Of a DNA stretch of 38,379 nucleotides, positions 31,607 through 37,279 are shown piece after piece. The notes beneath the pieces were generated by a model. That model was not told the origin of the DNA and did no database searches. It worked only from the letters and a program-made list of their open reading frames with translations. This DNA is from an uncultured Pelagibacteraceae bacterium (GTDB lineage: Bacteria; Pseudomonadota; Alphaproteobacteria; Pelagibacterales; Pelagibacteraceae). The translations under genes were made by a program, and so were the position numbers. The stretch covers positions 1 through 38,379 of the forward strand of contig CACDLR010000007.1 in NCBI GenBank assembly GCA_902553695.1, read 5' to 3'. Every line of letters begins with the position of its first letter. Positions within the stretch are counted from its first letter, which is position 1.

Positions 31607-32323
31607 ATGAACAACACAAAAAATATCAAAATAATTCTCGGAATTACTTACATATTGATAATTTCAATTTTTTTATGGTTTTTTTTTCAGAATTTTACAA
31701 TTCAAGACTTTACTAGTTATGAATTAATAAAAGAGAATAGGAATACTTTAGAAGGAATTAAAAATAAAAATATATTCTTATCAAGTTTATTATTTTTCTT
31801 TGGTACGATCATTTGGGTTCTTCTTTTGGGATTTGGCTCACCTATATTTTTAGTTGGAGGTTTCATATTTGGAAAAGTGCTTGGCACTTTTCTTGTAGTT
31901 TTTGGTTTATCAACTGGTGCTACACTTTTGTATATTTTTGCAAACTTTTTTTTTAAAGATATTATTAAAGAAAAATTTTCTAGTAGATTTTATAATCTAA
32001 CTGAAAAATTTAAAAAAAATGAATTTGTATTTTTTTTAGTGTACAGGTTTGTTGGGGGAATTCCTTTTTTTATTAGTAATATTTTACCAACATTATTTAA
32101 CATCAAAGTAAAAAATTTCTTTTTTGGGTCAGTAATTGGAATGGCACCACAGCTATTTGTTGGTGTATCACTAGGTGCAGGGCTAAATAAAATTTTGGAA
32201 GAAAACCAAGATCCACCAACCTTTTTTGAATTAATTTTAACACCTGATATTTATATTCCAATTGTTGGAATGATAATTCTAGTATTAATTGCTATTTACT
32301 TAAGAAAGTTTTTTTTAAAATAG
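31607..32323 (+). CDS. TVP38/TMEM64 (DedA-like/VTT) family membrane protein
   Basis: GSPIFLVGGFIFGKVLGTFLVVFGLSTGATLLYIFANFF...YRFVGGIPFFISNILPTLFNIKVKNFFFGSVIGMAPQLFVGVSLG. Confidence 0.85.
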   Translation: MNNTKNIKIILGITYILIISIFLWFFFQNFTIQDFTSYELIKENRNTLEGIKNKNIFLSSLLFFFGTIIWVLLLGFGSPIFLVGGFIFGKVLGTFLVVFGLSTGATLLYIFANFFFKDIIKEKFSSRFYNLTEKFKKNEFVFFLVYRFVGGIPFFISNILPTLFNIKVKNFFFGSVIGMAPQLFVGVSLGAGLNKILEENQDPPTFFELILTPDIYIPIVGMIILVLIAIYLRKFFLK

Positions 32324-32324
32324 C

Positions 32325-32398
32325 TGGTGCCCCGACCCAGAATCTAACTGGATTCTACGATTTACCATACCGTTGTTTTGACATTAAACTACCGGGGC
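32325..32398 (-). tRNA. Divergent tRNA-Thr(GGU)-like gene, CCA encoded
   Basis: Minus strand folds as GCCCCGG TA GTTT-AATGTCA-AAAC A ACGGT-ATGGTAA-ATCGT AGAA TCCAG-TTAGATT-CTGGG TCGGGGC A CCA. All four stems pair; anticodon GGT with U33; T loop TTAGATT and D loop AATGTCA are non-canonical. Confidence 0.82.
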
Positions 32399-32789: not shown

Positions 32790-32918
32790 ATGAATAAAAA
32801 AAGAAAGCCCTCAGAGCCTGAGCTTGAAAATGCGTTAAGAAAAAATCTAAAAAAAAGAAAAATTTTGCAAAAAAAAATTATAAAAAAAAATGATTCTAAG
32901 CGACAAACAAATAACTAA
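32790..32918 (+). CDS. Small basic ORF (42 aa) overlapping the dcd start
   Basis: MNKKRKPSEPELENALRKNLKKRKILQKKIIKKNDSKRQTNN*, between the 32483 gene and dcd. Confidence 0.4.
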   Translation: MNKKRKPSEPELENALRKNLKKRKILQKKIIKKNDSKRQTNN

Positions 32919-33441
32919 ACTTGCAGTAGAGCAAGAAATGATATCACCTTTTGTAAACAAAAGTGTTTCAAAAGGAATAAGTCATGGGCTTAATTCTTTT
33001 GGTTACGATCTAAGATGTGGCTCAGAGTTTAAAATATTTACAAATATAAAAGGTGCGACTGCAGATCCTAAAAATTTTAGTGAGGATAATTTTATTACTG
33101 TAAATGGCGAGAACTCAATTTTAATACCGCCTAATTCTTTTGCACTAGCAAGTAGTTTAGAATATTTTAAAATGCCACGTAATGTAACAGGTCTAGTAAC
33201 TGCAAAATCTACATATGCTAGGTGTGGTTTAGGTGTACCACCAACCGTACTTGAGGCTGGTTGGCAAGGAAATTTAGTACTAGAGTTTTCAAATCACACA
33301 AGTAATTCAATAAGATTATATGCTAATAGTGGAGCAGCTCAGATTTTGTTTTTTCAAGGAGAACAACCAGACGTATCCTACGCCGATAGAAATGGGAAAT
33401 ATAATTTTCAAACAGGAATTACTCTAGCAAAATCAAAATAA
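32890..33441 (+). CDS. dcd: dCTP deaminase
   Basis: MILSDKQITKLA...GLNSFGYDLRCGSEFKIF...GLVTAKSTYARCGLGVPPTVLEAGWQGNLVLEFSN. Confidence 0.95.
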   Translation: MILSDKQITKLAVEQEMISPFVNKSVSKGISHGLNSFGYDLRCGSEFKIFTNIKGATADPKNFSEDNFITVNGENSILIPPNSFALASSLEYFKMPRNVTGLVTAKSTYARCGLGVPPTVLEAGWQGNLVLEFSNHTSNSIRLYANSGAAQILFFQGEQPDVSYADRNGKYNFQTGITLAKSK

Positions 33442-33445
33442 AATA

Positions 33446-34723
33446 ATGAAAACATTTATAATAAGAGGCCCTAATAAAGCTATTAAGGGTGAAGTAAATA
33501 TAAGTGGAGCTAAAAATTCTTGTCTTCCATTAATGGCTGCATCTATTTTATTTAAAAACAAAATCACTCTTAGAAATGTACCATTTGTGAAAGATGTACA
33601 TACTATGAAGGATCTTTTAGTTTCATTAGGGGCTAGAGTCGATTTTTCAGAGTCGAAGAAAATGATGACAATAACCAACAAAAAATTCCATAAGCTAGTT
33701 GTACCCTATAATTTAGTATCAACCATGAGGGCTGGTGTTTTAACAATGGGCCCACTTCTTTCACGATATCCACAAAAAAAAATCAAAGTTGCATTAGGAG
33801 GAGGATGTGCGTTAGGGGTTAGAGATACAAATTGGCACTTATCTGGATTTAAAAGTTTGGGAGCCACTAATAGCTTAGAGAAAGGATATGTTAATATTTC
33901 ATCCAAAAAAGGTTTGAAAGGTAGTAAATATAAATTTCCAAAAGTGACTGTCACAGGAAGTTCAAACTTAATAATGGCTTCTATTTTTATAAAAGGAACG
34001 CATTTTATAAAGAATATTTCTATTGAACCTGAAGTTTTAGATTTAATTAATTTTTTAAATAAATCTGGAGCTAAAATAAAATTTTTAGGAAAAAGGTCTA
34101 TAAAAATTACTGGAGTTAAAGAGCTTTTAAGTGGGAGCCATAATATTATTGGAGATAGAATAGAAGCTTTTAGTTATTTGTGTGTTGGAGCAATAACTAA
34201 TGGAAATATAAAAGCTAACAATATCGATCCTGGTCAACTTAGATCTGAAATCAGTACATTAAAAAAAATTGGTTATAAAATTGAAACAAAAGATAAATCT
34301 ATTAAAATAGCTCCAGGCGATAAACTTAAACCTATTAAAATTAAAACTGGACCTTTCCCTAATTTTGCAACTGATAATATGCCACTTATACTGGCAGTTC
34401 TAACAACGATAAAAGGAAAAAGTCAAATAGAAGAAACAATTTTTTCAAATAGATTTATGGCTGCACCAGAATTAAACAGAATGGGCGCTAAAATAAATAT
34501 AAAAAAAAATAAAGCTACAATTATTGGACAAAAAAGACTTTACTCGGCAGATTGTATTTCATCTGATTTAAGAACCACATTTTCAATTATACTTGGAGCT
34601 ATCGCTGCAAAGGGTTCATCAAAAATCTCAAGAATTTATCATGGATTAAGAGGATACTATAATCTTGAACAAAAGCTAAAAAAAATAGGAATTAAAATAA
34701 TCTCAAAACATAATGGCAGATAA
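33446..34723 (+). CDS. murA: UDP-N-acetylglucosamine 1-carboxyvinyltransferase
   Basis: GEVNISGAKNSCLPLMAASIL...STMRAGVLTMGPLLSR...GGCALGVRDTNWHLSGF...PFPNFATDNMPLILAVLT. Confidence 0.95.
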   Translation: MKTFIIRGPNKAIKGEVNISGAKNSCLPLMAASILFKNKITLRNVPFVKDVHTMKDLLVSLGARVDFSESKKMMTITNKKFHKLVVPYNLVSTMRAGVLTMGPLLSRYPQKKIKVALGGGCALGVRDTNWHLSGFKSLGATNSLEKGYVNISSKKGLKGSKYKFPKVTVTGSSNLIMASIFIKGTHFIKNISIEPEVLDLINFLNKSGAKIKFLGKRSIKITGVKELLSGSHNIIGDRIEAFSYLCVGAITNGNIKANNIDPGQLRSEISTLKKIGYKIETKDKSIKIAPGDKLKPIKIKTGPFPNFATDNMPLILAVLTTIKGKSQIEETIFSNRFMAAPELNRMGAKINIKKNKATIIGQKRLYSADCISSDLRTTFSIILGAIAAKGSSKISRIYHGLRGYYNLEQKLKKIGIKIISKHNGR

Positions 34724-36588: not shown

Positions 36589-36664
36589 GGAACCCTGGTG
36601 TAGCTGGTGCGCACGAACGCCTGAAAAGCGTTAGGACCTGGTTCGTTTCCAGGGGGTTCCACCA
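36589..36664 (+). tRNA. tRNA-Phe(GAA), atypical D and T loops, CCA encoded
   Basis: GGAACCC TG GTGT-AGCTGGTGC-GCAC G AACGC-CTGAAAA-GCGTT AGGA CCTGG-TTCGTTT-CCAGG GGGTTCC A CCA; anticodon GAA. Confidence 0.88.
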
Positions 36665-37205: not shown

Positions 37206-37279
37206 GCCCGATTGGTGTAGTAGAAGCACGTAACTCTGTGGAAGTTGAGGGCCAGTTGCGAATACTGGATCGGGTACCA
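37206..37279 (+). tRNA. tRNA-His(GUG), lacks encoded G-1, A73, atypical elbow, CCA encoded
   Basis: GCCCGAT TG GTGT-AGTAGAA-GCAC G TAACT-CTGTGGA-AGTTG AGGG CCAGT-TGCGAAT-ACTGG ATCGGGT A CCA; anticodon GTG; next to hisS. Confidence 0.88.

Follow-up and report, generated by a model that had tools for sequence, protein, structure and literature searches.

Reviews (PMC4810234, PMC7912444) give the tertiary pair between positions 19 and 56 of tRNA as Watson-Crick, G19-C56, with an outer face that the ribosome, RNase P and others contact, and the pair is regarded as a constant of tRNA architecture. A stretch of 38,379 nucleotides from an uncultured Pelagibacteraceae bacterium, analysed here as a whole and referred to as the window, contains a tRNA-Thr(GGU) gene in which G19 is replaced by U and C56 by A. 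Is this gene decaying or wrongly assembled, or is it a working tRNA whose elbow pair has been kept in other letters, and if so how did such an allele become established? We consider it to be a working tRNA-Thr(GGU) with a compensated U19-A56 elbow, an allele that has probably spread and been kept through whole-gene exchange in SAR11, and we would give this reading a probability of roughly 0.86.

The first-pass annotation of the window described a minus-strand cloverleaf with intact stems, an encoded CCA, G18-U19 and A56, and proposed ARAGORN and covariance-model checks. Its reading of the sequence proved correct when set against the sequence, ARAGORN and Rfam RF00005: ARAGORN calls tRNA-Thr(ggt) at 32325-32398(-), and the RF00005 model scores the gene at 52 bits, the gathering score being 29. 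Parsed into its structural elements the gene reads GCCCCGG-TA-GTTT-AATGTCA-AAAC-A-ACGGT-ATGGTAA-ATCGT-AGAA-TCCAG-TTAGATT-CTGGG-TCGGGGC-ACCA, and all 21 of its 21 stem pairs form, with G7-U66, G30-U40 and U49-G65 as wobble pairs. It shares with the canonical bacterial tRNA-Thr(GGU) of RF00005 the cloverleaf, the GGU anticodon, G1-C72, C2-G71, A73, CCA, and the elbow pairs G18-U55 and U54-A58, with G18, U54, U55 and A58 all in their usual state. It differs in having a 4-nt variable loop, a non-Levitt A15/A48 and, in place of G19-C56, a U19 and an A56 that are Watson-Crick partners as judged from their letters. This tRNA would read ACU and ACC codons, of which the nine neighbouring genes contain 45 and 11, respectively. 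GGU, U33, G1-C72, C2-G71, A73 and CCA serve ThrRS, and all are present in the window gene.

Table 1. Positions of the tRNA-Thr(GGU) gene, its elbow bases and its neighbours within the window
Feature	Position	Strand	Basis
tRNA-Thr(GGU), U19-A56 elbow, encoded CCA	32325..32398	-	ARAGORN; RF00005; identical copy in genome G337
G18 (32382) and U19 (32381), D loop AATGTCA	32381..32382	-	sequence; U19 in 25/25 A56 relatives
A56 in T loop TTAGATT, partner of U19	32345..32345	-	sequence; U19 with every A56 in 75 distinct sequences
Anticodon GGU	32364..32366	-	ARAGORN; invariant in 74 relatives
TVP38-like membrane protein gene, 3' side of the tRNA	31607..32323	+	ORF; synteny in most SAR11 loci; name from the first-pass annotation
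dcd-like gene (dCTP deaminase), 5' side of the tRNA	32890..33441	+	ORF; conserved neighbour
tRNA-Phe(GAA), second hypervariable tRNA	36589..36664	+	ARAGORN; cross-genome comparison
tRNA-His(GUG), third hypervariable tRNA, A18-G55 replacing G18-U55	37206..37279	+	ARAGORN; cross-genome comparison

The order TVP38-like gene, small ORF, dcd, murA, hisD, tRNA-Phe, tRNA-His and hisS is kept throughout the genus, the names of the neighbouring genes being taken from translations and from the first-pass annotation with no family search behind them. A DNA search of 61 relatives with the window tRNA matched only itself because the Thr(GGU) alleles are too divergent, and orthologous loci were reached via dcd, not via the tRNA sequence. 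In nearly all of the loci examined in this genus tRNA-Thr(GGU) lies between TVP38 and dcd; at two of them (L070 and L071) the tRNA was missed by ARAGORN and read by eye, the former being also matched by Rfam. Absence from related genomes had been raised as a sign against a functional gene. With a strict whole-gene pattern, Thr(GGU) is found in 54 of 62 near-complete related genomes, normally as a single copy. The annotation also suggested a check for a second tRNA-Thr(GGU), and none is seen in the window's own assembly, which is 70% complete; a second, canonical gene was considered and rejected.

Constraint on the family was assessed with 74 structurally numbered Thr(GGU) sequences. For every one of the 21 stem pairs, between 70 and 74 of these sequences have the pair formed (for most pairs, all 74), and most pairs vary in type, with many compensatory changes between sequences. 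G1, C2, U8, A14, A21, U33, the GGU anticodon, A37, A38, C61, G71, C72 and A73 are invariant (74/74), and the anticodon loop is nearly fixed, with variation at position 32 only. Pair 15:48 covaries (A-U in 53 sequences and G-C in 15), and A-A occurs in the window copy alone, so that among the oddities listed earlier for this gene the A15/A48 mismatch stands; A32 and the 4-nt variable loop do not, as 50 of 74 relatives have A at position 32 and a variable loop of this length is normal for the family. Stems that are kept paired through compensatory changes point to a constrained, presumably working tRNA-Thr(GGU), and neither to a pseudogene nor to an error. The broken stems or lost constraint of a pseudogene are found neither in the window copy, where every stem pair forms, nor in the family, which covaries.

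The elbow itself was followed across SAR11. In a search of 399 genomes of the SAR11 genus with an A56 pattern, an A56 tRNA-Thr(GGU) was found in 25 genomes (in 4 of the 57 near-complete ones), and all 25 tRNAs have U19, with four versions of the D loop among them. A broader A56 pattern, applied to 398 genomes of the order sampled from the window's genus and 12 other genera, gave 19 tRNA matches and one chance match, every one of them in the window's genus, with zero from the remaining 12; the six additional A56 tRNAs recovered in this way again have U19. When a full-gene pattern harvest was combined with the tRNA-dcd loci, 75 distinct Thr(GGU) sequences were obtained. GG is present in the D loop in 63/63 of those with U55-C56, G18-U19 in 7/7 of those with A56, and A18-G19 in 5/5 of those with G55, and mixed 19/56 or 18/55 states were not seen among the 75. 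The first-pass annotation had argued for a coupled change at 19/56 as opposed to decay, and had named a random mix of 19/56 states in orthologues as evidence to the contrary. The 75 sequences, with 63 GG, 7 U19-A56 and 5 A18-G55 forms and no discordant state, and with stems that covary, bear out its view, and compensation at 19/56 appears well supported by these comparisons. In other SAR11 tRNAs U55-C56 is accompanied by GG in 69 of 70 distinct sequences; a control from bacterial tRNAs in general, with 3 genes, was too small for comparison. Thr(GGU) varies greatly from one species to the next and falls into four elbow classes: TTCRAYT with GG, which is canonical; TTAGATT with U19-A56; TGCAAGT with G55 and A18; and GTCAGTA with GG. 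In the last of these, represented by 17 distinct SAR11 sequences, G54 and G58 replace the U54-A58 reverse-Hoogsteen pair, and one relative has A54 and U58; among the 74 numbered sequences pair 54:58 is U-A in 56, G-G in 17 and A-U in one.

That the gene is decaying or misassembled, and the 19/56 match a coincidence, could be suspected from odd bases at positions considered nearly universal, from the A15/A48 mismatch and from a draft genome that is 70% complete. The mismatch, together with two wobble pairs where the acceptor and T stems meet, also counts against our own reading. However, an identical 74-nt tRNA-Thr(GGU) (74/74) is present in a second genome, G337, with flanks that are 63-83% alike to those of the window (63% downstream, 78-83% upstream), and because the same 74 nt recur between diverged flanks chance or error is ruled out. 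The coupled state is found in 25 genomes, stems are held by compensatory changes while the identity bases are invariant, and the gene is usually the sole one for Thr(GGU). Decay or error is already refuted by this recurrence and by stem covariation, and we give it almost no weight. U19 and A56 might instead be linked by descent only, one ancestral allele having had both and the pair being structurally meaningless. One related group (78-99% identical) does take in six of the seven distinct A56 sequences, and since the A56 alleles may go back to just one or two coupled events, covariation in Thr alone does not amount to many independent events. The window allele, however, is about as near to its closest canonical allele (75%, with nearly the same 3' half) as to the other A56 alleles (74%), which makes a second origin for its U19-A56 form plausible; the closeness hints at such an origin. 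In addition, the letters at 19 and 56 are Watson-Crick partners in every case, the A19-U56 of virus tRNA-Asp included, and U19 and A56 have remained unchanged while the surrounding stems changed. Linkage by descent only is therefore improbable in our opinion.

In a compensated elbow the Watson-Crick U19-A56 would act as a flat, exposed tertiary pair that keeps the geometry with other letters, on the surface that the ribosome and processing enzymes would touch. The main U19-A56 form shows up to 87% identity with a canonical allele of SAR11 (L061 type); losing one G in GGTT and changing C56 to A would turn the elbow of the latter into U19-A56. U19 most likely arose in this manner, one G of the GG in the D loop being lost and the loss compensated at position 56.

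Comparison of whole tRNA sets gave a broader and more surprising result than the U19-A56 compensation, namely that tRNA-Thr(GGU) belongs to a hypervariable trio with tRNA-Phe and tRNA-His. Across six genomes His has a mean pairwise identity of 70.2%, Phe of 74.1% and Thr(GGU) of 74.8%, and each other isoacceptor lies at 84-100%, so these three are the only outliers among about 30; their genes all lie within 5 kb. Between SAR11 species tRNA-Phe and tRNA-His vary to the same degree as Thr(GGU), and they have discrete allele classes that include A18-G55 elbows. Genomes G004 and G005 are 93-94% identical in the flanks and 73% in Thr(GGU), one having U19-A56 and the other the canonical elbow. The reverse is seen at loci L143 and L339, where the tRNA is 100% identical between flanks that are 66-76% identical. 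In G010 the tRNA-Phe is 60% identical to that of its near twin G027, and the upstream infA has been replaced along with it. In the near-identical genomes of L142 and of L140 and L150, tRNA-Phe and upstream infA are swapped jointly and conserved DNA resumes just downstream. On a protein tree of yidC, TVP38 and hisD, the Thr elbow class requires at least 12 changes, and shuffled labels require 16-23, a pattern that combines a partial vertical signal with frequent switching. Thr(GGU), Phe and His alleles are evidently replaced gene by gene between SAR11 species. The gene, going beyond what the first-pass annotation had seen, is part of a divergent allele pool exchanged between species, and Phe and His are alike in this. 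The U19-A56 allele has probably spread and persisted through this interspecies exchange of Thr(GGU) and the nearby Phe and His genes. That exchange takes place is seen from the comparisons; its mechanism would be recombination over short tracts, each bringing in an entire tRNA gene with its compensations in place, and divergent donors, tRNA-bearing phages included, probably feed the pool.

Viral records are relevant to the last point. The GTCAGTA class is present in five IMG/VR records, one of them 73/74 identical to a SAR11 allele (in G408 and others). The phage character of these records was taken from IMG/VR and from helicase and primase families: in two GTCAGTA-bearing records there are helicase and replicative-helicase families of phage type, and in one of the two a phage-type primase as well. 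A T4-type capsid search of the virus records gave zero matches, as did its control, and is uninformative. The 14-base pattern used gives many chance matches and only ARAGORN-confirmed tRNAs were retained. Virus searches found no copy of the U19-A56 class, the near-identical virus copy being of the GTCAGTA class only; one viral-contig match to the U19-A56 search was rejected, as it is not a tRNA. The window tRNA-Phe shows 82% identity, along its entire length, with its counterpart in Erwinia phage phiEt88, and 77-83% similarity is seen between other Thr classes and Thr genes of phages. In the virus set, which is small (166 distinct tRNAs) and partly selected by the GTCAGTA pattern, GG accompanies U55-C56 in 159 of 160 and AG is found in the D loop in 4/4 with G55. 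The GTCAGTA T loop itself occurs in viral L229, L230, L253, L265 and L299. Two viral tRNA-Asp (L204 and L315) have the T loops TTTGACT and TTTGATC, with U56, and GA in the D loop, and are thus compensated A19-U56 in both cases.

What drives the variation of the trio is a separate matter. An arms race, in which tRNA cutters or binders (anticodon nucleases, toxins, phage factors) favour new Thr(GGU), Phe and His alleles, would agree with the restriction of the effect to just three of some 30 isoacceptors, with the 73/74 identity of one Thr(GGU) class to tRNAs on virus contigs, and with the documented use of phage tRNAs to evade tRNA-targeting defences (PMC10264068, PMC11555353). However, the trio lies within 5 kb and the intervening dcd and murA also look exchanged, pointing to a positional recombination hotspot; a candidate cutting agent was not identified, and the Thr(GGU) anticodon loop varies little, at position 32 only. 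Such an arms race is possible and somewhat doubtful. The fuller version of it, in which the trio's compensated alleles, U19-A56 included, are traded as cassettes among species and phages, driven by escape from tRNA targeting, with the letters of the elbow among the things that vary, is a tentative proposal that we would rather doubt. Special tRNAs in which the GG of the D loop is altered are known from staphylococci, and a comparable non-ribosomal role, for example in cell-wall or lipid aminoacylation, might have relaxed the elbow here. Against this, the gene is normally the only one for Thr(GGU), its neighbours use the codons it would read, and the elbow pair is kept, not lost, and we regard a special role as very unlikely.

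Phage-encoded tRNAs, as carried by large tRNA-bearing phages (PMC10264068, PMC11555353), resemble the present system in their compensated odd elbows (A18-G55, A19-U56) and in the virus copy of one SAR11 Thr(GGU) class; the window gene differs from them in its fixed chromosomal place, in being the usual sole isoacceptor, and in that its own class was not found in the viruses searched. Metazoan mitochondrial tRNAs that lack the elbow, as treated in PMC4810234, likewise depart from the standard form, but there the pair is lost and here it is kept with other letters. Recombination between SAR11 genomes is common to this work and PMC12374537, whereas here tracts of about one tRNA gene import alleles that diverge strongly, in a class of genes that otherwise evolves slowly. 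The available portions of PMC4810234 and PMC7912444 make no mention of U19-A56, nor does that of PMC3937112, in which SAR11 tRNA signatures are used for phylogeny, mention allele variation of the Thr/Phe/His kind. Natural U19-A56, A19-U56 and A18-G55 sets, or allele replacement of the trio, are not reported in the literature searched, with subscription journals mostly outside it. With these sets the elbow can readily be tested for covariation, and they are natural substrates for asking which of the contacts with the ribosome, with RNase P and in modification depend on particular letters and which on shape only. The trio shows that within one bacterial genus very different alleles can take the place of normally single-copy tRNA genes, which bears on tRNA-based SAR11 phylogeny (PMC3937112) and on phage-host tRNA exchange.

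Some further observations concern the neighbouring genes and another tRNA. The dcd at this place is of two divergent types, 82-92% or about 48-55% identical to that of the window. Both dcd and murA (32890-34723 in the window) have two very different types at the same SAR11 position, independent of their neighbours, and this pattern suggests replacement by transfer. A tRNA-Val(GAC) at L170 (genome G012) has the D loop AATAGTA and the T loop AGCGTAA, giving A18, G55, A54 and U58; it was rejected as a hypervariable tRNA because, odd elbow notwithstanding, it is 100% identical in the five genomes having the gene.
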